Positions 12,291 through 56,966 of a stretch of DNA of 64,000 bases are shown here, piece after piece; positions within the stretch are counted from its first letter, which is position 1, and every line of letters begins with the position of its first letter. The position numbers and the translations under genes were made by a program. The DNA is taken from IMG/VR virus record IMGVR_UViG_3300025704_000016, positions 1 to 64,000 of that record; one strand, 5' to 3'. The notes below the pieces were generated by a model. The model made no database searches. It had not been told where the DNA came from and saw only the letters and a program-made list of their open reading frames with translations. Source of the stretch: a virus.

Positions 12291-12659
12291 ATGAAGACAT
12301 TTGACAAATACTTAGTTGAAGAACATGTAACAGAAACTGACATGGCACTAATTAAAGAGGGCCTACAAGAAGAATGGACACCAGAACTAGAGGCCCAAGT
12401 AGATGCCGCTATTGATGAATTCATGAAAAAATATTCAGATGCTGAAGGTAATTTGAGTATTGAAGCCCTTAACGAGGAGATTACAAACGAGGGTTTATTA
12501 GGCTCTATTATCGGTGGTTTAACTGGATTTGCATTAGGTAAGTCAGTTGGTAAGATGCTTGCCAAAGTACTTGGTGTTCAGAAGGGTGTATTATATGATC
12601 TATTAACTTCAAGACTAGTAGGTGCTGCTTTAGGCGCTAGTCTTGGTAAAAGATTCTAA
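12291..12659 (+). CDS. putative packaged internal peptide precursor with glycine-zipper C-terminus
   Basis: 122 residues. The N-terminus MKTFDKYLVEE matches the T4 internal-protein capsid-targeting pattern (M-K-T-Y/F-x-x-F/Y-I/L-x-E). The acidic middle contains several I/L/V-x-E motifs; the clearest, ITNE|G at residues 67/68, would release a 55-residue peptide. That peptide is hydrophobic and Gly-rich (GLLGSIIGGLTGFALGK, later LVGAALGASLGK), a glycine-zipper pattern typical of membrane-inserting helices. Seen: the motifs. Known: T4 gp21 cuts internal proteins after such sites. Inferred: a head-packaged peptide that may act on the host membrane during ejection. Confidence 0.55.
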   Translation: MKTFDKYLVEEHVTETDMALIKEGLQEEWTPELEAQVDAAIDEFMKKYSDAEGNLSIEALNEEITNEGLLGSIIGGLTGFALGKSVGKMLAKVLGVQKGVLYDLLTSRLVGAALGASLGKRF

Positions 12660-13313
12660 ATGAACTATATCGCAGTTGACTTCTCCTTAAACTCTCCGGG
12701 TATTTGCTTATATAACGATAAGAGTAAGAAGTATAAATTTATTGGTTACATTAAGCCGAAGACAGGCACAAAGAAAGAACAAGCCTTACAAGAAGAATTA
12801 GGCATGTTGCAAGATGTAACGATGGTGACTCAGCCAGATTTTACAAATGATGAAAACTATTCGGGCTCTGAACTTGCAAAAGTAAAGCGCTACGATCGAA
12901 TGGCTGATGAAATAATTAATCTCATTCTACAAGAGTCCTTTCCAGGCGACTCATTTACTATTGCATTCGAAGGAACTTCATACGGCTCAAAGATGGGCAC
13001 TAACAATATGATCGATATGGCAGCCGGCGCAGCAATCTTAAAACTAAAGATGTTGAAAGTTCTACAGCCGGAAGATTTGCTAACGGTCGCTCCGACGACA
13101 ATTAAGAAATTCGCTGGTAAAGGTAATATGAATAAGTCTCAAGTGTTCGAGGCTTTCGTTGCTAATTCAATAGATGACAAGTCTCTGCTTAAGAGTCCAT
13201 TCTACGCTCGGATTAAAGAGCTAGACTGTGGGAAAAAGGTGCCTAAACCTGTTGATGACCTCGTCGACGCTTTCTTTCTTGCAGCCATGATCTCTGCTCC
13301 AACTCTAACCTAA
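12660..13313 (+). CDS. RuvC-like Holliday-junction / branched-DNA endonuclease
   Basis: 217 residues. RNase-H-fold signature: an N-terminal strand with the first acidic residue (IAVDFSLNSPGI, Asp7), a second acidic strand (FEGTSYGSKMG) and a C-terminal helix VDDLVDAFFLA carrying the last acidic pair. This order matches RuvC-type resolvases, which resolve branched DNA before packaging. In T4 that job belongs to the unrelated gp49, which I do not see in this window, so this gene may replace it. It starts directly after the previous TAA. Followed by a gap with an inverted repeat and a late-type promoter. Confidence 0.7.
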   Translation: MNYIAVDFSLNSPGICLYNDKSKKYKFIGYIKPKTGTKKEQALQEELGMLQDVTMVTQPDFTNDENYSGSELAKVKRYDRMADEIINLILQESFPGDSFTIAFEGTSYGSKMGTNNMIDMAAGAAILKLKMLKVLQPEDLLTVAPTTIKKFAGKGNMNKSQVFEAFVANSIDDKSLLKSPFYARIKELDCGKKVPKPVDDLVDAFFLAAMISAPTLT

Positions 13314-13386
13314 CCTTATCTCTCCCCGAAAAGACATTTATTATATGCAAGCCCTGGGGATTTGTTCCAAAAAGGTTCAAAAAAAC

Positions 13387-13406
13387 TTCAACTTTTTTCA
13401 GTTGAA
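13387..13406. repeat. inverted repeat in intergenic gap
   Basis: ttcaac and gttgaa flank an 8-base T-rich loop. On the plus strand no U-tract follows. On the minus strand the hairpin is followed by a run of seven T residues, so it would work as an intrinsic terminator only in that direction. No minus-strand gene is present to need it. Confidence 0.5.
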
Positions 13407-13421
13407 ACAATCTGTTAGCTA

Positions 13422-13430
13422 GATATATAA
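13422..13430 (+). promoter_or_regulatory. late-type promoter element GATATATAA
   Basis: GATATATAA, 30 bases before the ATG at 13452. Same element and spacing as in front of the head genes; resembles the T4 late promoter TATAAATA recognised by gp55. Confidence 0.6.
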
Positions 13431-13451
13431 TACATGCAAGCAGATTATACT

Positions 13452-17889: not shown

Positions 17890-19455
17890 ATGGAACGATT
17901 AGTAACATTTGAACAATTTGCTGAGCAAAAGGCAAAAAAAGATCAGGTTCAACTTGAGGAAGAGTTGAATGCAAAAAGGGAAGCTTCAGCAAATAGCTTT
18001 AAGGACTTATTATCTGAATTCGGTGTAACTTCAATGAGTGAATTATCTGAAGAAGATAAGCCTAAATTTAACGAGAGATTAGGTACTTTAACAGAATCTG
18101 CACTATTGCTAGAAGGCACAAGATCTCAAGTAGGGAAGATCGATAAGAAAGGTAGGATTACATCGGTCTATGTACACTATGATGGTTATCCAGACCACAT
18201 GGTACCAATGATTAAGAACTACGACAAGAAAGGTGTTGACCAACTAGTTAAACTAGGTAAGTCTGGTATCTCATATTTAGACAAGAATATCGGTAAAAAG
18301 CAAGACTTTAATAGTCCAGTAAGGGGAACCACTCTATTCTACGGTAGAGATCGCGGAGAGAACAAAGATATGACTACTACATGGACCAACGCAGCTGACA
18401 TTAAAGGTTACTTTAAAGAAGTTGCTAACGACGGTGGAGCTGAATACGTTTATCTATATGATGAACGAGATGGAAAGTGGTACATGGGAGATACTTATGG
18501 TAGCCCTGTATTACAAGTAGTTGAATCAGTAAACGAGGCTGTTATTGCAATCAGTGGTAAGAGAACAGCCAAGAAAGTAGCTTTAAGACTAACCAGATTA
18601 TTTGATACCAAGTTAACAGCTCTTGCTGCGGATAAAGTAACAATGCTAGGCTTCTTGAAAGAGTTATATTTCTATGCAATGGAAGACGCTAACTTTTCAC
18701 GCGAGGCCAATGTGACAATGAACATGATTAAGGGTAAGATTAGCCCGCTAGAAGTTAAAGTAGAAGGCTTGGATGGTGAAGTTATTAGAATTTCAGCTAA
18801 GACGATAAAAACTATAGCAGACAAATACTACTCAGATCTTGCAAATGCAGGTGATTGGTCAGGTATTGGTATTACTGAAGGTTTTGCAATGTACTTAGAT
18901 CAAATCGGAGAGTCTAACATGGCACAAGCACTTCTTGACTCTTTTAATGCACAGTTTGAAGGTGAAGAGAAAAGAGTTTCTAGAACTGAAAAGCTTTATG
19001 AATTATCACAGAGATTAGAATCTACCAATGAGGCTAAAGAATCAGTAAACGAAGCTAAATACGATAAGAAGAAGCTTTTAAAGTTAATCAAGAATCATGA
19101 TGATGCTGAAATCCTAGTTAATGGAAAATGGTACATCATCTATAATCCAGATAACGGTAATGACGAAAACACAGATATGTGGAATGACGATTCAGTATTT
19201 GCATTAGATCAAGATGGTGAAGAGTTTGAAATCAATTACAAAGATATTGAGCATTTTAAAGAGTCTGTTGAAGTAAACGAGACTGAAATTAAATCTGATG
19301 ATGAATTCAAAGAATATGCATTCACAATACTTCAAAAAGCATTCGGAGCAGACTTTGATGAAGCAAAAGCGCAAGAAGTTGTTGATGGTATCTTAGGTAA
19401 AGTTGATGGCGATTATGGTAAGGCTGCAGGTATTTTGCAAAGCTCACTTGGCTAA
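17890..19455 (+). CDS. head-payload polyprotein with capsid-targeting N-terminus
   Basis: 521 residues from ATG 17890; the frame is open further upstream but that part overlaps uvsW and the promoter. The N-terminus MERLVTFEQFAEQ fits the T4-type capsid-targeting pattern. Prohead-protease-like sites recur: LTE69|S, LLLE75|G, VNE216|A, TNE381|A, VNE388|A, VNE464|T. They divide the chain into modules. The first (about 76-216) contains a YVHYDGYPDHM motif known from phage proteins of unknown role; the second is helical; the third is a small KWYIIYNPDNG domain; the last (about 465-521) is a helical domain with YGKAAGILQSSLG. No catalytic residues recognised. Inferred to be packaged in the capsid, cut by the gp21-type protease and ejected with DNA. 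Confidence 0.7.
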   Translation: MERLVTFEQFAEQKAKKDQVQLEEELNAKREASANSFKDLLSEFGVTSMSELSEEDKPKFNERLGTLTESALLLEGTRSQVGKIDKKGRITSVYVHYDGYPDHMVPMIKNYDKKGVDQLVKLGKSGISYLDKNIGKKQDFNSPVRGTTLFYGRDRGENKDMTTTWTNAADIKGYFKEVANDGGAEYVYLYDERDGKWYMGDTYGSPVLQVVESVNEAVIAISGKRTAKKVALRLTRLFDTKLTALAADKVTMLGFLKELYFYAMEDANFSREANVTMNMIKGKISPLEVKVEGLDGEVIRISAKTIKTIADKYYSDLANAGDWSGIGITEGFAMYLDQIGESNMAQALLDSFNAQFEGEEKRVSRTEKLYELSQRLESTNEAKESVNEAKYDKKKLLKLIKNHDDAEILVNGKWYIIYNPDNGNDENTDMWNDDSVFALDQDGEEFEINYKDIEHFKESVEVNETEIKSDDEFKEYAFTILQKAFGADFDEAKAQEVVDGILGKVDGDYGKAAGILQSSLG

Positions 19456-19476: not shown

Positions 19477-20760
19477 ATGAGAAAATTACTTTCATATCAA
19501 GAATTTTTAGTTGAGAAAGCATCTGCTCCGGTAGATGCAAATCTCATTCTAGAGGGCGGTGCAGCTGGTCATATGTCGCATCCGTTCGACGAAAAAGAAT
19601 TGACATTTGGTGACTTTAAAAAGATCGTTGAGTTTGGCTTAAGAGGCGAACTTAACTTTGAAGAAGAAGTTACCGAAAAGACCGACGGACAAAACTTATT
19701 TGCAACTGTAATGGATGGTGAGGTTAAATTTGCCAGAGGTATTAATGATATGAGGAATCCAATGGATCTAAAAACTTTTAAACAAAAGTTTGAAGCACAT
19801 AAAAGTCCACTAGTAAGAGATACTTTTCAATTCGCAGCAGAAGATTTAGCAAATTCATTAAATAAGCTACCAGCAAAAGACTTAGAGGTTTTTAATAATG
19901 GTAAGAGTTTTATGAATATGGAGCTAATCTACTCGAAGAACCCAAATGTAATTTATTACGACAGGGATGTTATTCAATTCCATGGTATTAAACATACTGA
20001 TGGTGATGGTAATGAAATAGGAGATGAAACAAAATACGCAGCATCAATTGCAAAGGTTCTTAAAGACCTTAAACTTGATATGGGTAAAACATTTTCAATT
20101 ATCCCACCACAAATCATTAAAATGGGTAAGGATATTGACTTCGATGCAAACAAAGCTAAATTCCTTAAACAAATTGAAGATCTACGTAAACAGTACAACT
20201 TAACAGATGCTGATGAAGTTTCTATGTATCATGAAATGTGGTGGAGAGAAACTATCGATAAGAACTTTCCGGATCTAACACAAGATCACAAAGAAGGACT
20301 TTTATTAAGATGGGCGTATGATGATAAGAAGACTCTTAATATAAGAAGTCTTGATAAAGAGTTAGGTAAAGATAAAGCTGCTCTAATTAAAAAGTTTGAC
20401 AAAGAAGATGTAAAGAAAAAACAAAAAGAGAACATGAGACCTTTTGAAGATTTATTTCTTGAACTAGGTAGTGTTATCTTAAAGAACGCATCTAACTTTG
20501 TGGCTGCTAATCCAGCTGCAGAAATGCAGAGACTACAAAAGCAATTAAAAGATGAAGCGGAAGCAGTTAGAAAAAGCGGTGATGTTTCGGACATTGAAAA
20601 AGTTGCTAAAGAACTTGAAAGACTTGAAAGAATCGGAGGTATCGAATCAATTATACCAACAGAGGGTATTGTCTTTAGATACAAAGGCAAGACTATGAAG
20701 CTAACAGGAACATTCGCTGCAGTTAACCAGCTTATGGGTTTTATAAAATACGGTAGATAA
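19477..20760 (+). CDS. RNA-ligase-like nucleotidyltransferase with capsid-targeting N-terminus
   Basis: 427 residues. The N-terminus MRKLLSYQEFLVEK resembles the capsid-targeting motif, and LILE26|G would be cut by the prohead protease, leaving a chain starting GGAAGHMSHPFD. Covalent-nucleotidyltransferase motifs follow: motif I EKTDGQNLF with predicted adenylated Lys68, a motif III-like FMNMELIY, motif IV EGIVFRY (about 396-402) and motif V with Lys408 (MKLTG). These define the ATP-dependent DNA/RNA ligase fold, here nearest to RNA ligases. A coiled segment (about 330-385) precedes motif IV. Adjacent to a second ligase-like/NMN-adenylyltransferase fusion. Substrate unknown; packaging is inferred. 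Confidence 0.65.
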   Translation: MRKLLSYQEFLVEKASAPVDANLILEGGAAGHMSHPFDEKELTFGDFKKIVEFGLRGELNFEEEVTEKTDGQNLFATVMDGEVKFARGINDMRNPMDLKTFKQKFEAHKSPLVRDTFQFAAEDLANSLNKLPAKDLEVFNNGKSFMNMELIYSKNPNVIYYDRDVIQFHGIKHTDGDGNEIGDETKYAASIAKVLKDLKLDMGKTFSIIPPQIIKMGKDIDFDANKAKFLKQIEDLRKQYNLTDADEVSMYHEMWWRETIDKNFPDLTQDHKEGLLLRWAYDDKKTLNIRSLDKELGKDKAALIKKFDKEDVKKKQKENMRPFEDLFLELGSVILKNASNFVAANPAAEMQRLQKQLKDEAEAVRKSGDVSDIEKVAKELERLERIGGIESIIPTEGIVFRYKGKTMKLTGTFAAVNQLMGFIKYGR

Positions 20761-22634: not shown

Positions 22635-24992
22635 ATGGCAACAGTAACAATGGACGCAATGGACCCTAAATCAAAAGGTCTAGCCAAACTACTTAAGAAG
22701 AATAAAGTAAAGATGGAGATCTTAACGATGAGAGGCCCTTCAGGCTGGCCTGAAGTTGAACTAACTGGTAAGAGAGAAGATCTTGAAACAGTTTTAGCCG
22801 ACGGTGAATATGGTTGGGATGACCCAGAATTAGCTGAGTATATTGAAGAAAGTGCTGATGTTAATGAGGCCAAGATCACTCTAAAGAGACGTTACACTGA
22901 GAATCACCCAGCGATTACAGTTGGTAAAGCAGCTCGTATCAGAAATAAAATGCTCGAAGCAATTGCTGACGGAGCCCTTACTGAAGAAGAGTTTAACAAT
23001 ATCTTAAGCGAATACTCTGCAAACGCAAAACAGTGGATGAAGAGAAACGCTAGATTCTTTAACGTATCTGAAGAAGGTATTGCACTTTCTAAGTTTGGTA
23101 AGAAAGCGCTTTCTGCAGTTGTAGTTAACGAAGAAGAATCAGTTACGGAATCAGAAGCTGTAAACATTTTAAACGATCTTTTAGATGAGAGAGGCGGAGA
23201 CATGGGAGAATTACATGGAATGGAAATGGAAGATGCATTAGATACAGTCGAAGCATACGGACATAAAGGTTCTAAAGCAAAAAAGATTGCACAGGAATTA
23301 CATTCTTTATGTAACGAATCAGTAGTTACTGAAGCTAAATTCGTAAAAGATTTTAATAGAGATGTTTTAAACGCGAAAACAAAAGAAGAAGTTTTGGAGC
23401 TTTATCCAAACGCTGAATTCTTTATCGGTAAATCAGATCATTTCTTTGGAGAGTTTGATGAAAATTTATTCTTTAAAGCATACTATACAAAAGGACAAAA
23501 AGAATTTGAAATCAAATCAGTTTATTCTGAAAAAGGAAGCAACTATGTTCATTTATACAATGAATCGTTAGTTTCTGAAAACTACGAGGTTATCTTTAGT
23601 GATGGTATGTCACAAATGAAAAAGTTTAGAAGCGAAGCGCAAGCTCTTGACTTCATGAAGAAAACTATTGCTTCTAACAAGAAATTAAGAGACATTGCGG
23701 TTTACAAACCAGGTATGTATTCAACTACTCAAACTGAATTAGTTGTTAAATTCTGGGGAGATGGTTCTTATTTAGATAATGTTTCTAAGAAGGATCCAGA
23801 ATTAGCTGCTAAGAAATTAGAGGAATCGGTAATAAATGATTTTATCGAGGAAGGTAATGCTTTCGGTGCAGCAAGAGCTAAAGCAATCGCTGATGGCAAG
23901 AAAGAGTTTACAGTGGGTGGTGAAACTTACCCAGTTGAAGATGTTGACAAAGAGGACAAAGAGAATGCTGAAGAATTTAAAGGTGAATCTTTTATCATCG
24001 AGTCTTTCTCTAAGTTTGTAGAAAGCCTTAACGAGTCTAAAATGCTTACAGAAGCATTCAAGTCAATGAAGCTTGCACAACTGCTAACACCTAAGAAGAA
24101 AACAAACTGGGATAAAGGTCTTGCTCAAGAGTTCTATAACTACACTCAAGTTAAACTAGATAAGGTTGAAGACCACGACCTGTTAGAAATAGATCCACAG
24201 ACTGCTTACAAGCAAAAAGGTGGTACTAAAGTAAAGTTCTTCTTAATCGACAACGAAAAGCAGAGTCCTTACACTGACGATAACTCTGACGGTAGAATCC
24301 AACCAGGACTAATTGCAGTCTTAAACGGTAACAATGATTTTATGGGAGCTGTTTATAAAAGATTTAGCAATGAAAAAGGTAGAACCTTAACTAAAACTGA
24401 TAAAGCGGATTCACTTGGTGTTGACAAGAGAAGAAAGGGCTACGGCGCTACTGGACTTTCAAGTGCTAAGAGAATTGCTGACTTTGCAGATAGAGCAATC
24501 GTAATTGACGTTGACATCTTAAGACAGAGATATTCAGCTCAACAACAAAAAGATTCAAGAACTGCTGCTAAGAAAGGAGCTATTGCATTTAAGACTGACA
24601 AAGAGTTTAAAGCTGAGAATATCGCAAGATATAACGAGATCTTAGCTAATAAGGCTGCAGCACTGCCACTTGATAAAATGGTTAAAGGTGCAATCGACAA
24701 ACTCGCTGATCAGATTAAAGAAGGTGTAGCTAAAGGCGAAAAAGGACGTTACGGCGACATTATCATTGGTAAAAACTCAAAAGGCAATGAAGCTAAAATG
24801 AGAGATGCTTCTAACCACATGAGCAATATCCTAGATGACTATGGCAGATATGTACAATATATTGCTGATGGTGAAAAGGAGAAAGAAGACTGGGGTAAAG
24901 AAAACTCATACTACGCTAGAGAGGCAAAAACATATGCTAAGAACATTAAAGACAAGATCAACCAGATTGATACCTTTGATTATGCTTGGTAA
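22635..24992 (+). CDS. mosaic head-payload polyprotein
   Basis: 785 residues. At least three clear prohead-protease-like sites, VNE78|A, VTE233|A and LTE473|A, split the chain, with weaker ones (SVTESEA, SLVSEN) between. The last is preceded by SFSKFVESLNES, resembling the capsid-targeting motif, as if the C-terminal ~310 residues were once a separate packaged protein. A short EGNAFGAARAKA...GGETYPV module (about 395-425) is a repeated element in phage proteins of unknown role. The C-terminal part contains a basic GVDKRRKGYGATGL segment and a helical end. No enzyme motif is certain. Same operon as the two nucleotidyltransferase genes. Confidence 0.62.
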   Translation: MATVTMDAMDPKSKGLAKLLKKNKVKMEILTMRGPSGWPEVELTGKREDLETVLADGEYGWDDPELAEYIEESADVNEAKITLKRRYTENHPAITVGKAARIRNKMLEAIADGALTEEEFNNILSEYSANAKQWMKRNARFFNVSEEGIALSKFGKKALSAVVVNEEESVTESEAVNILNDLLDERGGDMGELHGMEMEDALDTVEAYGHKGSKAKKIAQELHSLCNESVVTEAKFVKDFNRDVLNAKTKEEVLELYPNAEFFIGKSDHFFGEFDENLFFKAYYTKGQKEFEIKSVYSEKGSNYVHLYNESLVSENYEVIFSDGMSQMKKFRSEAQALDFMKKTIASNKKLRDIAVYKPGMYSTTQTELVVKFWGDGSYLDNVSKKDPELAAKKLEESVINDFIEEGNAFGAARAKAIADGKKEFTVGGETYPVEDVDKEDKENAEEFKGESFIIESFSKFVESLNESKMLTEAFKSMKLAQLLTPKKKTNWDKGLAQEFYNYTQVKLDKVEDHDLLEIDPQTAYKQKGGTKVKFFLIDNEKQSPYTDDNSDGRIQPGLIAVLNGNNDFMGAVYKRFSNEKGRTLTKTDKADSLGVDKRRKGYGATGLSSAKRIADFADRAIVIDVDILRQRYSAQQQKDSRTAAKKGAIAFKTDKEFKAENIARYNEILANKAAALPLDKMVKGAIDKLADQIKEGVAKGEKGRYGDIIIGKNSKGNEAKMRDASNHMSNILDDYGRYVQYIADGEKEKEDWGKENSYYAREAKTYAKNIKDKINQIDTFDYAW

Positions 24993-25105: not shown

Positions 25106-25585
25106 ATGAAACATGTAAAATTATTCGAACAATTTCTAAATGAGGATGTTAAAGTTAAAGGTAATATCTCAGAAGAAACAGCTAATGAATTGCTTGATTT
25201 TCTAAAACGGGCTATCGGTAAAAAATTAAACTGGAAAGAATTTTCAAAATGGCATGGTGGAGCTGCTCAATTAGGTAAAAAATCACCAGCACAAAAAAAG
25301 TTCTTAGAAGCCAATTATGAATGCGAGATTACAGATGTTACAATGCGCTACTTACCTAAGTATAAAAATGCTGTGTATTCAGTGTCATATCTACAAAATG
25401 CAAAATGGCATGGCTCCCAGTGGGACGAAGAGCCACTTAAATTATATAAAGATGATCCTAATTGGACACCAGAGGAAGGCGATACTAAAGATAGGTCTTT
25501 AGAAAAAGGTCTTGAAAGGTACCATGACGAAAGGCAATGGGACAGATTTTCAGATATAACTAGAATAGGTCGATTCGGTGTTTAA
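25106..25585 (+). CDS. small head-payload candidate with capsid-targeting N-terminus
   Basis: 159 residues. MKHVKLFEQFLNED at the N-terminus fits the targeting motif; cleavage after FLNE12 would leave a ~147-residue basic/aromatic domain. That domain has helices at about 20-45, then a KWHGGAAQLGKK segment and a Trp-rich C-terminal half (WHGSQWDEE, NWTPEEG, QWDRF). Family not recognised. It lies in the payload cassette with its own possible promoter. Inferred packaged protein of unknown activity. Confidence 0.55.
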   Translation: MKHVKLFEQFLNEDVKVKGNISEETANELLDFLKRAIGKKLNWKEFSKWHGGAAQLGKKSPAQKKFLEANYECEITDVTMRYLPKYKNAVYSVSYLQNAKWHGSQWDEEPLKLYKDDPNWTPEEGDTKDRSLEKGLERYHDERQWDRFSDITRIGRFGV

Positions 25586-35742: not shown

Positions 35743-35795
35743 ATTGAAACTGTTTGCTCTTTTCACATACAATAACTAAACATAAATTAAAAAAT

Positions 35796-36539: not shown

Positions 36540-36542
36540 TAA

Positions 36543-37751: not shown

Positions 37752-37753
37752 TT

Positions 37754-37945: not shown

Positions 37946-37946
37946 T

Positions 37947-38114: not shown

Positions 38115-38116
38115 TT

Positions 38117-44134: not shown

Positions 44135-45487
44135 ATGCACTTTTTAGATTTTAATAGCTTTCTTAACGAAGCGCAAGTAATGAAAACTACGGGCATGTTT
44201 GACGCTAAGTTAGACAAGGCTGCAGATGTTATCATGGCATACTTGAACAAGAAGACTGGCGATGACTACAAGAAATTCCCATACATTTTAGTACACAGAA
44301 TTGATGGTGCTGAAGATCCAGGTATCATGCTCTACTCTAATAAGTCTGACAAGGCTGTTAGAATCGGTGGTCAAAGTAAAGGACCTGGTATTGTAGGTTC
44401 TCTTGCTTTTTACTCAAAGCACTATACTGAAGTTGCTGACTTCATGGTTACTTCAGATCAGTTTCCAATCGTTAAATTAATTGATGAGTTTGTTAGACTG
44501 ATGGATGCTAAATACGTTAAGCAGATTGCAGAATCATATGATGCTCTTAACGAAGCTGCTTCAGACTATGCATTTAGCCAGGCTGAAATCAATGAGATTA
44601 ATAAGCTTCTAGACAAGAAGATGCCGGTAACTAAGATTGCTAAGAAGATGGATATTCCATATAGATCAGTCTTAAAGGTAAAGCGTAATATTTCTTCTGG
44701 TGAAGTTAAATCTAACATGGAAGTTAAAAACGAACAGACTCTTGATGATAAAGTGAAGTTCTTAGAGGAAACCATTGAAGACATCTATCAAATCTCAAGA
44801 AAAGTTGCAGCAGGTGCATTCAACTCACTCTTTATTTCAGGCCGAGCAGGTACTGGTAAAACATACAACGTTGAAAAAGCAATGCAAGATGAAGGTCTTG
44901 AAGAAGGTGAAGACTGGATATTGGTTTCAGGTGCAGCATCACCAATTATGATGTTCAAGAAGTTCTATCAATTTAGAAATAAGACTCTAGTCTTTGATGA
45001 TTGTGACTCGGTATTTAGAGATGAGAATGGCCGTAACATGCTTAAAGCAGCTCTTGATACTAAAGCTGTTAGAAAGATTAGCTGGATGAAGAAGTCTTCA
45101 ATTGTATTTGACCCAAAAGATTTTGAAAATAACCCAGAAGCAGAATTTAACGCGCTAGAAGCAGGTCTTGTACCAAACAAATTTGAATTTGCAGGTCGTG
45201 TAATTTTTATCTCTAACTTAGAGAAAGAGAAAGCAGATCCAGATGGCGCAATTCGTTCTAGATCGATCCTAATTGATGTGGCACCAGATGATGCTACATT
45301 AATGGAGCGTATGAAGAAGTTACTTCCTTATCTAGAACCAACTGATATGCCAGTGAACGAGAAAGAGGAGATCTATGAGTTCATGAAGAATGCAGGTGAT
45401 GTTTCAATGAGAACATTCGTAAAAGCTGCAGGCTTTAAAAGAGCAGGTCTTTCTGACTGGCAAAGAATGGCACAGAGATACTTATAA
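44135..45487 (+). CDS. AAA+ ATPase with capsid-targeting N-terminus
   Basis: 450 residues. The N-terminus MHFLDFNSFLNEA fits the targeting motif and would be cut at FLNE12|A. A second strong site, ALNE140|A (with IAES just before it), separates a ~128-residue N-domain from the rest. Then comes a small helix-turn-helix-like region (MPVTKIAKKMDIPYRSVLKVK), Walker A GRAGTGKT (236-243), Walker B LVFDDCD, an IFISNL sensor-like segment and the RSRSILIDV arginine region. It is transcribed from a late promoter among head genes. Inferred to be packaged and released in the host as an ATPase, or to act during head assembly. Confidence 0.65.
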   Translation: MHFLDFNSFLNEAQVMKTTGMFDAKLDKAADVIMAYLNKKTGDDYKKFPYILVHRIDGAEDPGIMLYSNKSDKAVRIGGQSKGPGIVGSLAFYSKHYTEVADFMVTSDQFPIVKLIDEFVRLMDAKYVKQIAESYDALNEAASDYAFSQAEINEINKLLDKKMPVTKIAKKMDIPYRSVLKVKRNISSGEVKSNMEVKNEQTLDDKVKFLEETIEDIYQISRKVAAGAFNSLFISGRAGTGKTYNVEKAMQDEGLEEGEDWILVSGAASPIMMFKKFYQFRNKTLVFDDCDSVFRDENGRNMLKAALDTKAVRKISWMKKSSIVFDPKDFENNPEAEFNALEAGLVPNKFEFAGRVIFISNLEKEKADPDGAIRSRSILIDVAPDDATLMERMKKLLPYLEPTDMPVNEKEEIYEFMKNAGDVSMRTFVKAAGFKRAGLSDWQRMAQRYL

Positions 45488-46644: not shown

Positions 46645-47817
46645 ATGACTAAATTAAGAAAAGGCATCATTTCGCCAACAGAAAAACAAGGCGTAGGTTA
46701 CATCTTTGAGACTGCCGGCAAACTATTTAAAGTTACTGGTAATATCATTAAAGAAGCAACTGGAGCATCTGAAGAGTTTAACGCTCTATCAAAGGCTCTT
46801 GAGGCTTTCAAGGTAGATGAATCTGGCATTCAGTTTAACTATGACTTAAACAAAAAGTCACAGATCACTGATCTGAACGAGGCGAAATCTAAAAACTACG
46901 ACGAATTAGTTGGTCTACAAGATAAAGCTGAATTCCTTAAGACTGAGTTAAAAGAATCTAAGTTAGCCGGTAAGAAAGCAGCTACTACTGAATTAGAAAA
47001 AGAATTAGCAGAAGTTAATGAAACTATCTTAACGTTAACCAACAGTGGTATTCAAGTAACCTTTAAATACGATGCTAACGAGAATAAGACTTTTATTGGC
47101 AACCGTGAGGTTATCACAGAAGGTGTTACAGAACAAGCTTTTGCATCAGCATTAATTAGATATGAAGATAAAGGTCTTCTGAATCTATTTGAAACGGCTG
47201 CTAAAAACTTCGGTATGTACAACATCCTAGAATTCGTAACTGAGTCTCAACTTGGAGATGTAAAAGTTTCTACAATCCGTACTGAGAATAGAGTATATGC
47301 TTGGAGAATTAACGAGGCAACTAGAATCGGTAAGTTTATTCAAATGGAGCCACAAGAATTAATCAACTACGTTGCTGAAGAAACAGGAGCAGATATTACA
47401 GCTTCAGTTCAAGATCTATTAGATGGTATTAAAGAACAAGTTGAAGATAGAGAGAATGCAGTTGCTTTAAGAAGAGAGATGATCTCATTCTTACAGGATC
47501 AAAAAGGTAGACTTGCAGAAGCAGATAGAAATATACCAGCTATTAAAGAAGCAGATCATTTCTTAAGCTCTGAGATTAAAAGAATCGGTGAAGAGATTGA
47601 ATCTTTAGAGGAAGCAAAATTAGGCAGAGATGACGGCTATCTAGAAGCTACTCTTAAAGTTGATTTTGACGGTCTAACCAAAGGTACTACGGTATTGATA
47701 GATGCAATGGAATATTCTTCAGCTGGAAAAACAGATCTTCTGACTGTTTTTAAAGACGATAAACCATTAAGAATTGAGAAGAGAGCAATTGAACTTCCTA
47801 GTTCAGAATTGACATAA
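46645..47817 (+). CDS. late protein with prohead-protease-like sites, unknown
   Basis: 390 residues, acidic and mainly helical with coiled-coil stretches (about 88-130 and 255-320). It lacks the N-terminal targeting motif, but has sites such as DLNE|A, ITE|G, FVTE|S, INE|A and LEE|A. It has its own late promoter and a terminator behind it. It may be a prohead core or packaged protein; no family recognised. The position between gp15 and gp55 gives little further help. Confidence 0.55.
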   Translation: MTKLRKGIISPTEKQGVGYIFETAGKLFKVTGNIIKEATGASEEFNALSKALEAFKVDESGIQFNYDLNKKSQITDLNEAKSKNYDELVGLQDKAEFLKTELKESKLAGKKAATTELEKELAEVNETILTLTNSGIQVTFKYDANENKTFIGNREVITEGVTEQAFASALIRYEDKGLLNLFETAAKNFGMYNILEFVTESQLGDVKVSTIRTENRVYAWRINEATRIGKFIQMEPQELINYVAEETGADITASVQDLLDGIKEQVEDRENAVALRREMISFLQDQKGRLAEADRNIPAIKEADHFLSSEIKRIGEEIESLEEAKLGRDDGYLEATLKVDFDGLTKGTTVLIDAMEYSSAGKTDLLTVFKDDKPLRIEKRAIELPSSELT

Positions 47818-50996: not shown

Positions 50997-51010
50997 AAGA
51001 TATATAAACT

Positions 51011-51373
51011 ATGAAAATTTATAGAACATTCGAATCATTCGTTAAAAAGGTAAACGAAGACGCACTGAAAGCAGGCGAAGAGTCAACTGTATATGTTGAT
51101 GATTATACACTAGACTCAGGTGAGACTATTAAGTCTGCAGAGATACTTGGAGCTATCCAAGCTTATCAAACAGAGAAGGAATTCCAACAATACTTTTTTG
51201 ATGAGTATGGTGAGGGTTCTTTTGCTAGTGGAGAGCTAGATAAGCTAACAAAATTCTTTAATGAGGTTAAAGCTGAAGAGAAAGAAGAAGACGCAGATGT
51301 CGACAAGGAAGAGAAAAAAGATGACGAAGGTGGCGACGAAGGTGGCGCTGATGACCTAGACCTTGACATATAA
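51011..51373 (+). CDS. prohead core protein (gp67-like) with targeting-type N-terminus
   Basis: 120 residues. Begins MKIYRTFESFVKKVNED, the same targeting pattern as the payload proteins. The C-terminal third is extremely acidic (runs of Glu/Asp with Lys, ending DDLDLDI), as in T4 gp67, which lies at this same place between gp20 and gp21. This supports the idea that the motif directs proteins into the prohead core. A GATATATAA at 50999 is only 12 bases upstream. Confidence 0.65.
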   Translation: MKIYRTFESFVKKVNEDALKAGEESTVYVDDYTLDSGETIKSAEILGAIQAYQTEKEFQQYFFDEYGEGSFASGELDKLTKFFNEVKAEEKEEDADVDKEEKKDDEGGDEGGADDLDLDI

Positions 51374-51428: not shown

Positions 51429-53390
51429 ATGAAAAATAGCAAAGATTTATTGATTGTTGAGAGGTCCTCATCGGCACTTACGGTTGATAAGAATGAAAAC
51501 AAAGACTATGTGCTTGAGGGTATTTTTGGTCAAATAGATCAAAAGAACAGAAACAACAGAATCTATACGGAAGATGAATATGTTCCACAGATTGAGGCTC
51601 TTCAAGCAAAAATTAAGTCTTCAAAGCTTTTGGGCGAGTTAGATCACCCAACACAATTCGATACTTCTTTAAAGAACGTGTCACACATAGTAGAAGAACT
51701 TTACTATGATAAAGATACAAAAGAAGTACGTGGTAAGATCAGACTTCTAGACACAGATGCTGGTCGTCAAGCCAAAGCACTAGTCGACGCTGGTGTACCA
51801 CTTCAAATCTCGTCAAGAGCTGCAGGTGCTGTTGAATCTAACGGTAAAGTTAAGATCAAGCAGCTTTTTACTTATGACCTAGTAGCAGATCCCGGTTTCG
51901 AGAACGCTGAGCTAAAAAGAGTAAATGAGTCTTACGGCTTTAGCAACGACGAAGGACTATACATCTACGAGATGGGAGAAGTGGCTAACATTATAGAAAA
52001 CACAGACACACAAATAAAAGAAAATCAAAACATGGCAGAATTCGTAAAGGCTGAAGACTTTAACAAGTACTCACATTATCTTGCTAAAGAGATTAAGGCA
52101 ATTAAGGAGGCTATCGACGCAAAGTCTGATGAAGAAGCAGCTGGCGTTGATGAGAAAATTACTAAAGTGATTGGTCACAGCGACCATATCGCAGAAAGCG
52201 TTAACAAACTTGAAAAGTACGTTAGCTATGTGACTGAAAGGCTAGATGAGTCTATTCAGTACACCGAGCATGTTGCAGAAAAAACAGATCAAGGTATTCA
52301 ATACTCTGAAGCTCTAGCTGAAAAGTTAGACCAGTCTATTCAATACTCTGAACATGTTGCAGAAAAACTAGACGAAGGTATTCAGTATACTGAGCACGTT
52401 GCAGAAGGAGTTGCTAAGTTGAAAGACTTTGCTAACTATCTAGCTGAAGCTCACAATGAAAGCACTGTCTCAGGTGAGAACATCATTGAGTACGTTAACT
52501 ATCTAAAAGAAAACATGCAGTCAATCTCAGAATATGCTGAGTACATTGCTGAATCTATCAACGAAAACTTAGTAGTTGAAGAAGAAGGTGACGTTGAAGG
52601 TGAAGAAGCTGGCGTTGAAGGTGAAGAAGTTGTTAAGAAAGACGAAGCTGAACTTGAAGAAGTTGGAGACAACTCTGAAGAAGGTGACGTAAGTGCTGAC
52701 GGCGAAGAAGCTGGACAAGAAGCAGAAGAAGGTGCTGAAGGTGCTGCTGATGGAGTTGATGCTCCAGAAGAAGTACATTCTGAAGAAGACAAAGGTACTC
52801 AAGAAGAGGCTGATGATGAAATGCCAGAAGACGAAGGCGAAGATGGAGCTTCAGATCCATTAGAAGCTTACAAGAAAGAAGTTTCTTCTAAGTTAGACGC
52901 ACTAGTTGAAAGCGCAACTAAAGCTGAGAATGAGAATCCATCATTCTTTAGAATTGTATCTTCAACAACTCAGTCTAAATACAACGAGCTTAACGAAGCT
53001 GCAAAAACTGAAGTTAGACAAATTGTTTCTAAGAGAGGTTTCATGACAGAATCTGAGATTGTTTCTCTAATCGAAAAATCAAATATGATTGTTGAGTCTA
53101 GACAGGCACAGCCATTCGTACTAGAGGCAATGCCAGCAGAATACGCTGATGTATGGTCAAACCTTTCAGAAGCTAAGCATAATCAAATTTTAGCTCAATC
53201 TAAGTATCATAAACTAGAAACAGAATACCAAGTAAGAAACTTCTGGCAAACTAGAGATCTAAGAGAATCTGCCTCAGTAATGGAGAAGATCGAAATGATT
53301 AAAGAGTCGAAAGAAGTTGAAGAGAACAAAGGCCTTGGATACGATGTAACTGGTTACGCTGAGCAATTCAAGAAGAGATTTAACAAATAA
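51429..53390 (+). CDS. 21-22: fusion of prohead protease (gp21) and scaffold (gp22)
   Basis: 653 residues. Residues 1-~175 are a gp21-type serine protease: YVLEGIFGQIDQKNRNNRIY, LLGELDHP with candidate catalytic His73, and LQISSRAAG with Ser128/129. From about residue 200 the chain is scaffold-like: coiled coil with four 14-residue repeats (276-331), a long acidic stretch (390-475), then a helical C-domain. Many self-cleavage-type sites occur (LAE|A, IAE|S, LNE|A, LSE|A, VLE|A). T4 encodes gp21 and gp22 separately. This protease should cut all predicted payload proteins in the window. Confidence 0.85.
   Translation: MKNSKDLLIVERSSSALTVDKNENKDYVLEGIFGQIDQKNRNNRIYTEDEYVPQIEALQAKIKSSKLLGELDHPTQFDTSLKNVSHIVEELYYDKDTKEVRGKIRLLDTDAGRQAKALVDAGVPLQISSRAAGAVESNGKVKIKQLFTYDLVADPGFENAELKRVNESYGFSNDEGLYIYEMGEVANIIENTDTQIKENQNMAEFVKAEDFNKYSHYLAKEIKAIKEAIDAKSDEEAAGVDEKITKVIGHSDHIAESVNKLEKYVSYVTERLDESIQYTEHVAEKTDQGIQYSEALAEKLDQSIQYSEHVAEKLDEGIQYTEHVAEGVAKLKDFANYLAEAHNESTVSGENIIEYVNYLKENMQSISEYAEYIAESINENLVVEEEGDVEGEEAGVEGEEVVKKDEAELEEVGDNSEEGDVSADGEEAGQEAEEGAEGAADGVDAPEEVHSEEDKGTQEEADDEMPEDEGEDGASDPLEAYKKEVSSKLDALVESATKAENENPSFFRIVSSTTQSKYNELNEAAKTEVRQIVSKRGFMTESEIVSLIEKSNMIVESRQAQPFVLEAMPAEYADVWSNLSEAKHNQILAQSKYHKLETEYQVRNFWQTRDLRESASVMEKIEMIKESKEVEENKGLGYDVTGYAEQFKKRFNK
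52032..53390 (+). other. possible internal start producing scaffold alone
   Basis: In-frame ATG (residue 202, MAEFVKAED) preceded by caaataaaagaaaatcaaaa, the same A-rich context as real starts in this genome. It falls exactly at the protease/scaffold border. It would yield a 452-residue scaffold, as lambda Nu3 is made from within gene C. Confidence 0.5.
52254..52421 (+). repeat. four in-frame 42-bp repeats (14-residue coiled-coil units)
   Basis: Units read IQYTEHVAEKTDQG, IQYSEALAEKLDQS, IQYSEHVAEKLDEG and IQYTEHVAEGVAKL. Fourteen residues equal two heptads, so this is a regular coiled-coil rod in the scaffold. Each unit also holds a V/L-A-E tripeptide like a protease site. Confidence 0.9.
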
Positions 53391-53488: not shown

Positions 53489-53532
53489 TCGACGAATAGG
53501 GCGAAAGAAGCAGAAAGCCCATCGAATGTCGA
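53489..53532 (+). promoter_or_regulatory. leader hairpin covering the first capsid ATG
   Basis: tcgac (53489-53493) can pair with gtcga (53528-53532) and gggc (53499-53502) with gccc (53517-53520). The first ATG (53526-53528) lies in the closing part of this stem-loop. It may favour the second ATG at 53562 or stabilise the mRNA. Confidence 0.4.
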
Positions 53533-55037
53533 ATAAACAAATAAAAAAAGATCATTCAAAAATGGCAAATTTAATTAACGAAGCTGAGATCAGAAACACT
53601 TGGGCTCCTATCATTGAGGAAGCTACAGGTATTACTGAATCTAACAAGCTTGCATGGATGTCTGAGTACTGCCACAATCACAAGCTGTACGAAGACGCAA
53701 ACATTATGGCACTTAACCCAGGTATGAACTTAGCTGGTATGGGCGCAGTATCTTTCCCAGCTAACGGTAGCACAGCTAACGTAGGTGGTTCAGGTGCAAA
53801 CGGCTCAGGTGACAAAGCTCCAACATTGCTTCCTTTAGCAATGCAGGTTGCTGCTCAAACTATCGGTCTAGACTTAGTACCAGTAGTACCAATGGCAGGT
53901 CCAATGGGATTACTTTCTTACTTAGACTACACTTACGAAGGTGGTGTTGCTAACGCTATCGCTAACGGTGCTGACGGTACTGTAGCTCCAACTTACGTAA
54001 AAGCTTCAGGTGCTGGAACTGCAGACATCACTGCTACTTCTACAAATGGTGCCTACGAATTCGTAGGAACTTCAAGAATTGACGGTAAGTCAATCTTTAA
54101 AGTAGGTACTATCGTAGATGCAACTGTAGCTGCTGATTTAGAAGCTGCTGGTGCTGATGGTGATTCTGTTGAACTAGTAAAAGCTATGGAAGATCACATC
54201 CCAGGATTTACTGGTGATGCTGATTCAGACGGTAACGCTCTTCCTTTCTCAAGAGAAAAAGGTGAGTCAACTAGAGACAAGCTAATGGGCTTAAGCCTAT
54301 TCAGCAAGTCAGTTGCTGCTGAAACTTTCCAAGTTGCTGCTGGTGTAACTAGAGAGCAAGTACAAGACCTAAAACAATTCGGTGTTGATGCTGTTGCTCA
54401 AGTAGAAGCAGTATTAACTAACGAATTGACTCAGTCTATCAACGACTACATCTTGAAGTCAATGAGAAATCTTGCAGCTACTAACATAACTGAAAACCCA
54501 TTCTCAGCTGCTATCGACCTATCTCCAACTACCAACTATGGTGGTGAGACAAGAGGTGAAGCACACAGAAGAATTTTAACTAACGTTCTTGCTGCTGCTA
54601 ACTTTATCGCTAACAAAGGTAGAAGAGGTGCTGGTAACTTCGCAGTAGTTGATGCTAAAATCGCTTCAGCTCTACAAGGTATCGCAGGTTTCGTACCTAA
54701 CCCAATGGCTAACACGTTCAACCAAGTTGCAGGTGCAATCTACCCAGTAGGTTCTGTAGCAGGTATCAACGTTTACACTGACCCTAGACTTCCTTTCAAC
54801 GGAGGTTACCTAGGTGATTCTGCTGGTACACACAGAATCCTAGTAGGTAGAAAAGGTGACGGTAACTCAGCTGGTCTAGTATTCATGCCTTACCTAATGG
54901 CTGAATCAGTACAAACAATTGCTGAAGGAACTATGGCTCCTAAAGTAGCTGTTAAGTCTAGATTCGCATTGGTTGAAGCTGGATTCCACCCAGAAACTCA
55001 ATACGTTGAGTTCAAAGTTGAAAACGTTGAACTATAA
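53526..55037 (+). CDS. 23: major capsid protein gp23
   Basis: 503 residues (T4 gp23 521). Location after the protease/scaffold, its own promoter and terminators, and strongly biased codons fit the major head protein. The N-terminal propeptide carries prohead-protease-like sites INE19|A, IEE32|A and ITE38|S, counterparts of the T4 gp23 cut at residue 65. HK97-type content follows: LLPLAMQVAAQTIGLDLVPVVPM (N-arm/E-loop border), a Gly/Ala-rich central region and KSRFALVEAGFHPETQYVEFKVENVEL at the C-terminus. Start may be 53562 (MANLINEAE), giving 491 residues. No separate vertex protein gp24 is seen in the window. Confidence 0.92.
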   Translation: MSNKQIKKDHSKMANLINEAEIRNTWAPIIEEATGITESNKLAWMSEYCHNHKLYEDANIMALNPGMNLAGMGAVSFPANGSTANVGGSGANGSGDKAPTLLPLAMQVAAQTIGLDLVPVVPMAGPMGLLSYLDYTYEGGVANAIANGADGTVAPTYVKASGAGTADITATSTNGAYEFVGTSRIDGKSIFKVGTIVDATVAADLEAAGADGDSVELVKAMEDHIPGFTGDADSDGNALPFSREKGESTRDKLMGLSLFSKSVAAETFQVAAGVTREQVQDLKQFGVDAVAQVEAVLTNELTQSINDYILKSMRNLAATNITENPFSAAIDLSPTTNYGGETRGEAHRRILTNVLAAANFIANKGRRGAGNFAVVDAKIASALQGIAGFVPNPMANTFNQVAGAIYPVGSVAGINVYTDPRLPFNGGYLGDSAGTHRILVGRKGDGNSAGLVFMPYLMAESVQTIAEGTMAPKVAVKSRFALVEAGFHPETQYVEFKVENVEL

Positions 55038-55065
55038 TCTTTAACTAGATAACACGTTTATATAA

Positions 55066-55096
55066 GAGAGGCTCTCATTTGAGGGCCTCTTTTTTG
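55066..55096 (+). terminator. intrinsic terminator after capsid gene
   Basis: Stem agaggc/gcctct extended by ctc/gag inside, followed by a run of six T residues. Confidence 0.85.
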
Positions 55097-55109
55097 TTTA
55101 TAGAAGTCT

Positions 55110-55118
55110 GATATATAG
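55110..55118 (+). promoter_or_regulatory. late-type promoter element GATATATAG
   Basis: GATATATAG, 36 bases before the ATG at 55146. Confidence 0.62.
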
Positions 55119-55145
55119 TCTATAGCTACTTAAAAAATACAAGTT

Positions 55146-56966
55146 ATGATGAAATTTAAAACTAGAATAAAAATGTTTGAAGACTTTGAGGCTACTAAAG
55201 TGGATCAAAGTGTTTCTACTAATGCTACAGTAAAAAAAGAAACTACTGAAGTTACAGTAGATGCTAAACCAAGTAATTCAGATACTTCAAGATCTGAAAT
55301 TATTCAAGATGTAGACAATATCATTGATAATCTAGCAAAGCTTTCAGATAGAATGGAAGAAGAGATCATGATAGAAGTTGACTCCATTATTGAAGAGGCT
55401 CTTCTACAACCTATTTACGAGAATAAGTTTTTTGAAGAGATGATGAAGACTTTTAAGTCTATGAAAAGCTTTGCAAAGCTAACTGTAGCTTGGCCAAAAA
55501 TATATAAGTCTCAATTGAAACAGGAACTTGCTAATCTTGAAGCAGAAACTCAATTTGGGGCACAAAAAAATGAGAAGATTGACCAGCTACTTAAAAAAGT
55601 TGAAGCTAAGTTTGACGCTAAGAAGGCTAAAGTCAAAGATTTAGATATTCCTGGTGAAAAGAAAAGAGAGCAAAGAGCTCAAATTGATGCAGCTTTCTCA
55701 GAACAGAAGGACGCTATTAAAGCAAAAATATCTAAGAAGTTAGATGCTCAACTTGAACAGGTTAAAGCAAAGGGTGCTAAAAAATTACAAGACATTCAAG
55801 CAAAACTTAGTGATTTTGAAAACTCTAATAAAATTGAAGCAGAACTAGTCAATAAAAGATGGACTACAAACAAAGGCGATATAAAAGCCGATTTGGATCA
55901 AAAACATATCATGGACAAAACTGAAGTTCAGCTTAAGTATGATGATTCAGATAATCCTGACTATGCTAAAAAATTAAAAGAAAGAGCTGCTAAAGAAGCT
56001 GCAGAAGAGAATAAGAAGGCTCAAGAGAAGAACGCAGAAAGAGAAGCAGAATTTAAAGAATTAGAGGCGGAATCAGCAAAAAGAGCGGAGGCTGGTTCAG
56101 AAAAAGAGAAGGAAGCTAATGCAAAGCTAAAAGCACTCTATTCTACGTCTAACGTTCTTATCAACGCACTTAAAGGTGCTGATGCTGAAGATCCATCTGA
56201 TGATCAAGTAGAGGCTATTAAGAAAGCAAAGAAAGACTATAATGCCGCTAAAGGTGCAATCTCAGCCAATACATTCATTGACGGTGGTGTTGCTAAAGAA
56301 GAAACAGAAGCACAAGGTATTTTAGACGATATTACTGGTAGTATTGAAAGTGCTCTAGACGAATATAGTGATAAAATGGCACTTGCAGATTCTAAGAAGA
56401 CTAAATCTGAAGAAGCTATTGAAGCTGCAGAAACTGCAGTGGATGATGCTAAAAATGAACTAGACCTAGTTAAGGATAACGGTAGTGAAGAAGACATTAA
56501 AGCAGCTCAAGAAAAACTATGGACTGCACAAATAGCAGAACAAAAAGCTAGAAAAGCTCAAGCTGAAGCTGGTGGTGAAGATGTCTCTAAATTCGATGCT
56601 AAAATCAAAGAATTAGAAGATAATATTAAAGGTGGTTCGGGTGAATCAAAAGACGATGAATCAAAAGAACCTACCCAAGAAGAACTTGACGCAGCAGACA
56701 AAGGTGTTTCAGATGCTAAAGCATCATATGATGAAGTTAAAGATGGTGATGATGAAAAAGCTAAGCTTCAGGCCGAAATTAAAGTTAAACAGGCTCAACA
56801 GAAGAGAGCAAAACTTAAAGACAATGATGAACTTTACCAAGGCTTAGTGGATGATATTGGTGAGCTGATGAAGAAGATACAAGCTCTAGGTGAATCTTTA
56901 GATATTAAAGAAAAACCTGCATTCAAATCAGCATCCATTACCGATAAATTCAGAGTTTTAATGTAA
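55146..56966 (+). CDS. long coiled-coil late protein, head-payload or head-associated candidate
   Basis: 606 residues, extremely charged, Ala/Glu/Lys-rich. The N-terminus MMKFKTRIKMFEDFEATK is a relaxed version of the targeting motif. Residues ~90-330 and ~400-570 are long predicted coiled coils; a Gly-Ser-Asp linker lies near 500. Only a few protease-like sites are visible. It has its own late promoter directly after the capsid gene. It abuts the minus-strand gene tail to tail with no gap. Role unknown; an internal-head or accessory structural protein is inferred. Confidence 0.6.
   Translation: MMKFKTRIKMFEDFEATKVDQSVSTNATVKKETTEVTVDAKPSNSDTSRSEIIQDVDNIIDNLAKLSDRMEEEIMIEVDSIIEEALLQPIYENKFFEEMMKTFKSMKSFAKLTVAWPKIYKSQLKQELANLEAETQFGAQKNEKIDQLLKKVEAKFDAKKAKVKDLDIPGEKKREQRAQIDAAFSEQKDAIKAKISKKLDAQLEQVKAKGAKKLQDIQAKLSDFENSNKIEAELVNKRWTTNKGDIKADLDQKHIMDKTEVQLKYDDSDNPDYAKKLKERAAKEAAEENKKAQEKNAEREAEFKELEAESAKRAEAGSEKEKEANAKLKALYSTSNVLINALKGADAEDPSDDQVEAIKKAKKDYNAAKGAISANTFIDGGVAKEETEAQGILDDITGSIESALDEYSDKMALADSKKTKSEEAIEAAETAVDDAKNELDLVKDNGSEEDIKAAQEKLWTAQIAEQKARKAQAEAGGEDVSKFDAKIKELEDNIKGGSGESKDDESKEPTQEELDAADKGVSDAKASYDEVKDGDDEKAKLQAEIKVKQAQQKRAKLKDNDELYQGLVDDIGELMKKIQALGESLDIKEKPAFKSASITDKFRVLM

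Follow-up and report, generated by a model that had tools for sequence, protein, structure and literature searches.

The closest described counterparts of the system considered here are the internal proteins IPI–III and Alt of phage T4, in which unrelated mature proteins, with anti-defence cargo among them, follow a short N-terminal leader, the capsid-targeting sequence (CTS). In the account of IPIII that we draw on (PMC9026906), the first ten residues suffice for packaging; targeting involves residues 4 and 7, processing involves residues 8 and 10, and Asp at residue 10 blocks processing while targeting is kept. A passage on internal proteins of T-even relatives puts their number at 'at least 10 reported so far' (PMC12373910). 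Here we describe a tag with the same key residues and spacing in a T4-type phage, IMG/VR record IMGVR_UViG_3300025704_000016 (73,568 bases), and in its relatives; the window is the whole 64 kb stretch of that record that was analysed. We consider it highly probable that this tag is a T4-type capsid-targeting system, greatly expanded, in which the prohead protease frees cargo for the next host. The T4 leader is described as being cut after Glu by the prohead protease, whereas what we observe is a preference at the residue that follows Glu (P1′). Packaging, cleavage and injection of the tagged proteins are predicted from sequence, with T4 as the basis for extending the prediction to delivery into the host.

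Unlike the T4 internal proteins, tagged genes number up to 26 per contig and fall into about 87 families, some of the cargo consists of enzymes or of proteins of 400–700 aa, and there are runs of adjacent tagged genes, apparent polyproteins, a C-terminal tag and a scaffold of tag-like repeats. Two other systems share single traits with this one. Polyvalent proteins of phages and conjugative elements combine several unrelated domains in one polypeptide that are rearranged between relatives; they are thought to be injected, and the sections of PMC5512222 cited here themselves draw the analogy with polyproteins. In SPN3US and phiKZ, the prohead protease strips N-terminal propeptides from packaged head proteins, as proposed here, but the SPN3US propeptides given in the cited part of PMC5694885 are mostly >100 residues (one of 20) and lack the aromatic tag. 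The polyproteins, the C-terminal tag, the resemblance to scaffold repeats, a tagged Tad3 and deletions that start in tag DNA are apparently new. The initial annotation, which proposed a family of capsid-targeted, protease-cleavable payload proteins, was right in kind and understated the scope, missing the first three of these. If the capsid-targeting reading is true, sequence alone would reveal which proteins this large group of uncultured phages injects, the tag marking cargo and the cut sites its mature form.

An N-terminal tag on unrelated proteins

Window genes are named here by their start positions (Table 1). A strict tag was defined as [FY]xx[FY][LIVAM]xE with its first residue at position 3–11, and mechanically called open reading frames (ORFs) were searched for it in the window, in four related contigs (G001, G005, G008 and G009), in 60–460 kb of the 462-kb huge phage LR756500, in five control phages (phiKZ 1–200 kb of 280, Lak-C1 1–160 kb of 540, Mel-JY01, S-CAM1 and PTm1) and, as positive control, in T4T (HM137666). 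The shared motif reported by the initial annotation, whose coordinates and quoted N-termini are correct, is enriched far above chance, but only four of the window proteins it listed match in full (12291, 19477, 25106 and 44135). These are 4 of 62 called genes; the internal rate predicts 0.28, and shuffled N-termini give 0.10 (at most 1 in 200 shuffles). In the four related contigs, 62 of 1011 genes start with the strict tag, compared with 4 of 1224 in the controls. By contig, the counts (internal-rate expectation in brackets) are 13/202 in G001 (0.50), 26/281 in G005 (0.29), 15/232 in G009 (0.53) and 8/296 in G008 (0.69), and LR756500 has 20/579 (1.28). No tagged arsenal was found in the controls, with 0/224 in Lak-C1, 1/245 in Mel-JY01, 1/235 in S-CAM1, 2/305 in PTm1 and 0/215 in phiKZ, which in this differs from the window clade. 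In T4T, 4 of 265 genes are strict-tagged (0.72 expected), namely IPII, IPIII, uvsW.1 and 61.1, and the pattern misses IPI and Alt. Across 160 related loci and the window, the strict pattern occurs at residues 6–10 at 20.2 per 1000 positions versus 0.85 beyond residue 20, as counted in our own ORF calls with orthologues entering repeatedly.

The remaining N-termini of the initial list are weaker. Glu is not at the right place in the window copies of 17890 (FEQFAEQ), 51011 (FESFVKK) and 25929 (FESFLNS), and 26346, listed as a motif-bearing protein, is a stub (MKHLKNFESFLADFK*). The relaxed forms claimed for 20771 and 55146 include no strict match, although 55146 has the aromatic spacing. Among the distinct N-termini of relatives, the strict form is present in 28/32 for 12291, 32/42 for 19477, 31/43 for 51011, 2/10 for 17890, 0/38 for 20771 and 0/12 for 55146.

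With the tag stripped, 297 distinct tagged proteins form about 87 BLAST families (E<1e-3) that have only the tag in common; as ORFs were called mechanically and families counted by BLAST, this number includes some false starts and some distant homologues. The tag consensus, with one representative per family, is M-K-H-[IV]-K-L-F-E-[EQ]-F-[ILV]-N-E. An alignment of 83 rows (A1) holds 79 of the 87 representatives and four window proteins; left out were seven sequences that were very short or whose starts are probably false or truncated, and one crossing a piece border. In LR756500, five tagged genes with nearly identical leaders (MK[FY]ILEYEEFL[LF]E, MKYIQTYDDFLNE) are clustered at 253382–257720 of the joined 60–460 kb stretch, and four of the five are separate families. 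T4 uvsW.1 and 61.1 (HM137666 114222–114452 and 18952–19116) begin tag-like, with LLEFKQFLYEA and KTFKEFIKED, respectively, and may be overlooked packaged proteins.

Aligned to IPIII residues 4, 7, 8 and 10, the tag shows aromatic, aromatic, aliphatic and Glu. In 48 of 87 families A, S or G occupies P1′, a position left unconstrained in the search; farther along the proteins these residues make up 18.5% (p 2e-14), and such a preference would be expected at a cut site. Glu itself is enriched in N-terminal relative to internal matches in G001, G005, G008, G009 and LR756500 (p≤0.009; in G005, 26/37 versus 6/127), and the enrichment is not significant in T4T (p 0.06), Mel-JY01, S-CAM1, phiKZ, PTm1 or Lak-C1. 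Together with the gp21-type protease and the late-promoter-like element described below, the IPIII residues and the P1′ preference uphold the initial reading of a T4-like, protease-cleavable leader. So short a motif, on proteins whose packaging is predicted, might instead be an address elsewhere (membrane, phage compartment or tail part) or a stability signal, its likeness to T4 being convergent. This is very improbable: the four fixed positions equal IPIII residues reported as tested by mutation (PMC9026906), P1′ shows its preference, the same motif recurs in scaffold repeats and in a gene at the core position, and tagged genes have the late-promoter-like element in common with head genes.

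Tagged genes adjoin, tags are near-identical inside one genome, and a tag-to-tag deletion is seen, all of which would suit a motif conserved as DNA, that is, a self-copying recombination or translation-start cassette whose peptide is incidental. However, when 18 G005 tags are compared at positions with the same residue, the codons are different in 484 of 1191 cases, and such free synonymous variation indicates that selection acts on the peptide. Families also keep F/Y, F/Y, L/I/V and Glu while neighbouring residues change (these positions being the pattern-selected ones), and the C-terminal version in 20771 cannot serve as a start signal. We therefore give a DNA cassette almost no credence and retain the capsid-targeting reading.

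Head genes, scaffold repeats and a late-promoter-like element

The window contains portal-like, gp67-position, gp21-type protease-scaffold and gp23-type capsid genes, and its portal-like gene (49392) was matched in 12 of 12 related contigs. When 24 kb of the window was used to query 50,697 phage records, no close DNA relative was returned at megablast sensitivity. The capsid protein (53526) matches 1429 phage records, every one with <60% identity, and has at least 589 confirmed relatives in IMG/VR; a host search with it in bacterial genomes gave 27 pattern matches, none of them confirmed. Its L54-Y55-E56 is invariant in 78/78 homologues. The protease (51429) matches T4 gp21 at residues 28–139 (E 4.4e-8).

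The scaffold region fused to this protease consists in part of repeat units (YTEHVAE, FANYLAE, YVNYLKE and YAEYIAE) that follow the tag pattern, the second aromatic position being filled by Tyr or His. Units of the form [FY]xx[FYH][LIVAM]xE are present in 78/78 homologues (>=400 aa), in 4–9 copies with a median of 6 (4 without His), and elsewhere at 0.3 per 650 aa. Residues 201–400 of 51429 contain seven units, against a mean of 0.11 and a maximum of 2 in 2000 shuffles. LR756500 has three such units and two near ones, and in the head-gene regions of PTm1, Lak-C1, Mel-JY01 and S-CAM1 no gene was seen with more than one copy of the repeat pattern. The resemblance has two readings, which may both hold: the tag mimics a scaffold unit as a means of docking, or tag and unit alike form an extended recognition site of the protease. 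Mimicry of the scaffold by a capsid tag was not found in the literature searched on the tag with scaffold or repeat. If the capsid-targeting reading is true, likeness to a scaffold repeat may be how the tag attaches to the core, something that the T4 literature cited here leaves unexplained. The gp22-like scaffold ORF of S-CAM1 (NC_020837 151363–152541) opens with KFEEFVTES; the annotated gene (to 152466) begins about 25 codons later, and the motif needs the longer start.

Upstream of the head genes lies the element GATATATA, which we infer to be a late promoter. In the window it precedes the portal, 51011, protease-scaffold and capsid genes, 46645, 55146 and five other ORFs including 44135, and it stands 30–36 nt before 49392, 51429, 55146, 44135 and 46645. 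It occurs 127 times on both strands of the four contigs, 93 of these (73%) within 60 bases upstream of a start; among 120 control 8-mers of the same letters the median upstream share is 5%, the highest being ATATATAG with 51% (25/49), which can overlap the GATATATA element. It is found within 60 bases upstream of 19/62 tagged and 74/949 other genes (p 6e-7). In the same contigs the spacing to the start is either exactly 12 nt (16 genes) or 25–57 nt (mostly 25–42), with none at 13–24 nt in the 60 bases searched, and genes of the 12-nt class may have late mRNAs that lack a leader.

The initial annotation cited a prohead core protein bearing the motif. The protein meant, 51011, has the gp67 position, the acidity and a CTS-like N-terminus, but the P1 Glu is missing from the window copy, in which VNE|D follows FESFVKK three residues on, and no homology to gp67 or a known core protein was found in PHROGs, Pfam or by tblastn to phages. 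It is more likely a prohead core protein than payload. The untagged 46645, with 10.3 [LIV][NTS]E[ASGKN] sites per 1000 aa in the window (family mean 11.0), is possibly an additional one. Along with 51429, these two fit an alternative in which the motif marks prohead core or scaffold proteins only, and tagged or multi-site proteins are chopped and expelled rather than delivered. The sites are densest, among families of at least three members, in the 46645 family, a three-member tagged family, the polyproteins and the scaffold, and T4 gp22 and gp67 are reported to be cut to fragments (PMC9026906). Many tagged genes, however, look accessory: a homologue in the three sister contigs is lacking for 32 of 61, compared with 247 of 740 other genes (p 0.003), and 13 of 61 versus 171 of 740 are present in all of them; cargo turns over fast between related phages. 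Enzyme or anti-defence domains in some tagged proteins, the small number of internal sites in tagged families, and window polyprotein pieces that reach about 310 aa and in some cases recur alone (pieces >=45 aa considered) also argue against a core-only role, which we regard as improbable.

In the capsid-targeting model, tagged proteins would be made late with the head genes, as the common promoter-like element suggests, and FxxF[LIV] would dock them on the prohead core, whose scaffold repeats nearly the same motif. The protease 51429 would then cut after [LIV]xE, the site seen in the leaders, to remove the leader and free the protein in the head, and the cargo would enter the next host together with the DNA, as in T4. 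The same cut rule probably splits the polyproteins 17890 and 22635 and trims the C-terminal tag of 20771. Several observations weigh against this model. The P1 Glu is absent from 17890, 51011 and 25929, and 22635 has no N-terminal tag; the 87 families include some false starts and distant homologues; and only 44135 of the four strict-tagged window genes has its own GATATATA within 90 bases. The one tagged arsenal seen beyond the near clade is that of LR756500, which is also a relative. T4 gp22 contains two near copies of the repeat and none that is strict, so that scaffold mimicry is not general. Finally, the prediction that tagged families would be richer in internal cut sites failed, with means of 0.66 per 1000 aa in 34 tagged and 1.92 in 109 other families, yet the result fits single-domain cargo.

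Predicted polyproteins and a C-terminal tag-like motif

Two long window proteins, 17890 and 22635, have the appearance of polyproteins, with cut sites of the tag type between their modules. In 17890, which includes a phrog_1987 module (E 1e-15), module borders fall at LTE|S (69), VNE|A (216), ITE|G (330), VNE|A (388) and VNE|T (464). Cut-like sites follow residues 78, 172, 233, 315, 467 and 473 of 22635, and its relatives have an N-terminal tag in 5 of 15 distinct N-termini. Before its last module stands an internal ESFSKFV in which E456, S457 and F458 are invariant and F461 is kept in at least 90% of 22 aligned sequences. The N-terminus counts for 17890 and 22635 are based on 28 and 26 members, respectively, picked by shared peptide strings. 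Relatives have similarly built proteins of about 460–1330 aa (e.g. G008 56207–60199 and L107 14250–17585), with linkers such as ESVVTEA, ESVNEA and NESKMLTEA between modules, and module order changes between them. Between the last module of G009 36528–38414 and G005 169252–169788, a tagged protein that stands alone, identity is 68%, and the two have the junction NE|KAYRLTG in common. Whole-protein BLAST places several tagged proteins inside G008 56207, for which the search by segments gave no segment-level match.

The AlphaFold model of 22635 is weak (mean pLDDT 62.9, pTM 0.33). Five of its six predicted cuts lie inside low-confidence stretches and the sixth is two residues off (random sets 0.002). 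Fold searches returned a winged-helix-like module at 92–178 (Z mostly 7–8, a common arrangement) and helical-bundle rows at 650–785 (best Z 8.9), for which no family is claimed.

Like polyvalent proteins, the window polyproteins have modules that are reordered, but Pfam names none of these modules. According to the part of PMC5512222 cited, polyvalent proteins are released by an embedded peptidase; in 17890 and 22635 neither an embedded peptidase nor another Pfam domain was matched at E 0.01, and here a separate prohead protease would cut tag-like linkers. The published examples of polyvalent proteins thought to be injected (PMC5512222) lend some weight to another reading, that 17890 and 22635 are ordinary multidomain proteins injected whole, with incidental [LIV]xE linkers that could be flexible joints. 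In 314 distinct [LIV][NTS]E[ASGKN] contexts, however, the preceding positions, left free in the search, are often E (136) or S (123). The coincidence of low-confidence joints with cut sites in the weak 22635 model, and the NE|KAYRLTG junction common to a module and a free-standing protein, also speak for cutting, as do local alignment ends, of which 1934 of 4059 lie within 8 residues of a site versus 742 at random, though these ends are not independent. We think injection of whole proteins unlikely, if still a serious contender. The fuller proposal, in which strings of small effector modules are docked by a motif that imitates a single scaffold repeat unit and are split in the capsid by the prohead protease at tag-like linkers, a single late gene thereby supplying the host with several proteins, with N-terminal, internal and C-terminal tags interchangeable and tag DNA the swap point for new cargo, seems to us evenly balanced between right and wrong. 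If true, it would be a new way of packing several effectors through a single gene; the literature searched on prohead protease and polyprotein, in the parts consulted, contained no capsid-matured cargo polyprotein.

A tag-like motif also lies at the other end of 20771, a protein with a Pfam CTP_transf_like match (E 1.4e-7). Of 42 distinct C-termini in the family, 40 have the aromatic core at their very end, mostly, as judged by eye, with Asn or Lys at the Glu position. The pattern behind this count, written after these C-termini had been inspected, was found in 3/220 family representatives at the C-terminus and 0/220 in a control stretch. Just upstream of the motif there is a cut-like site in 38/43 (loose pattern; 4.4 expected) or 22/45 (strict pattern). 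The T4T ORF 123471–125522, which we take to be Alt from its length and sequence, has FASFV at residue 648 of 683. Processing of the Alt C-terminus in T4 has been reported (PMC9026906).

Candidate cargo and other window features

Outside the window, a tagged G009 protein contains a Tad3 domain (PF25185; E 9e-22, 77.5 bits against a cut-off of 27), predicted by this profile match to be an anti-Thoeris domain (type I Thoeris inhibitor). The copy in G007 does not carry the capsid tag. A literature search for Tad3 with Thoeris found no paper. In a pooled Pfam scan, tagged proteins matched a polynucleotide-kinase-3′-phosphatase domain and a zeta-toxin-like kinase (member not traced), and tagged protein or proteins of LR756500 matched a DUF2201 metallopeptidase with a VWA-like domain and leucine-rich repeats. 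Of 30 of the 83 A1 proteins scanned singly, 22 had no Pfam match at E 0.001. If the capsid-targeting reading is true, up to about 80 families would be candidates for early anti-defence or takeover functions, one of them matching a Thoeris inhibitor.

Collinear tag-less homologues were found in 13 families. Three are clear (LR756500 120972/351169, G001 19225/G005 73279 and G001 19947/G008 56207), Tad3 is a further case in addition to these three, and the others are tag variants or wrong starts. In the three clear pairs, the tag-less homologue begins near the predicted mature N-terminus.

Comparison of the window with G001 revealed two deletions that both begin in tag DNA. In the first, 433 bp are missing from the tag of the DUF3008 gene (25617; Pfam DUF3008, E 4e-11) to the tag of the next gene, which has joined the two in frame. 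The second removes approximately 474 bp of the gene that follows, starting where its tag ends and stopping close to the end of the gene, and leaves the stub at 26346. The G001 gene order at these places is the same in L083 and L085 (L084 is G001 itself), and an assembly fault at repeats is a possible cause of both deletions.

Table 1. Tagged, tag-related and head-gene features of the window
Positions	Strand	Feature	Remarks
12291..12659	+	122-aa CTS protein (MKTFDKYLVE|E), glycine-zipper-like stretch	strict tag
17890..19455	+	521-aa predicted cargo polyprotein, N-terminus MERLVTFEQFAEQ	tag-like aromatic spacing, P1 Glu missing
19477..20760	+	427-aa CTS protein (MRKLLSYQEFLVE|K), predicted ligase-like covalent nucleotidyltransferase	strict tag, invariant residues
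20771..22615	+	614-aa protein, cytidylyltransferase-like domain	extreme C-terminal tag-like motif (..NESTIMTFDQFTKNI)
22635..24992	+	785-aa predicted cargo polyprotein	N-terminus untagged; ESFSKFV..LNE motif inside
25106..25585	+	159-aa CTS protein (MKHVKLFEQFLNE|D)	strict tag
25617..26342	+	DUF3008 domain joined in frame to next cargo (25929)	joined at tag DNA
26346..26393	+	15-codon ORF, little beyond tag	remnant of 172-aa CTS gene intact in G001
44135..45487	+	450-aa CTS protein (MHFLDFNSFLNE|A)	strict tag; phrog_1250 (unknown function)
46645..47817	+	390-aa protein, no tag, densest [LIV][NTS]E[ASGKN] sites	candidate core/cargo
50999..51006	+	GATATATA, late-promoter-like element	12 nt before 51011
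51011..51373	+	120-aa acidic protein, CTS-like N-terminus	between portal and protease (gp67 position)
51429..53390	+	prohead protease (T4 gp21 homologue) fused to scaffold region	gp21 match
52253..52406	+	42-bp (14-aa) scaffold tandem repeat	units like YTEHVAE
53526..55037	+	major capsid protein (gp23-like)	L54-Y55-E56, candidate cut site
55146..56966	+	606-aa protein, aromatic spacing only (MFEDF)	N-terminus; upstream GATATATA

In the strict-tagged window protein 19477, K68-x-D70-G71, E149, E396-G397 and K408 are invariant in 29 aligned sequences. A KxDG lysine motif with later acidic, EG and K motifs defines the covalent nucleotidyltransferase/ligase superfamily, to which 19477 is predicted to belong. 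Rows 1–19 of its fold list (VIA) are all ligases, at middling Z (6.5–5.0 over 88–114 residues); the best Foldseek hit was not significant (E 0.078), and a profile search of the PDB for a solved relative gave nothing better than E 0.59. Matches below the cut-off were to Gly-zipper_Omp for 12291 (Pfam, E 7e-4) and, weakly, to AAA and HTH domains for 44135. Elsewhere in the window, the DNA polymerase may be split over several ORFs at 33797–37751, in which the start of 36543 resembles what we take to be a family-B DNA polymerase motif.

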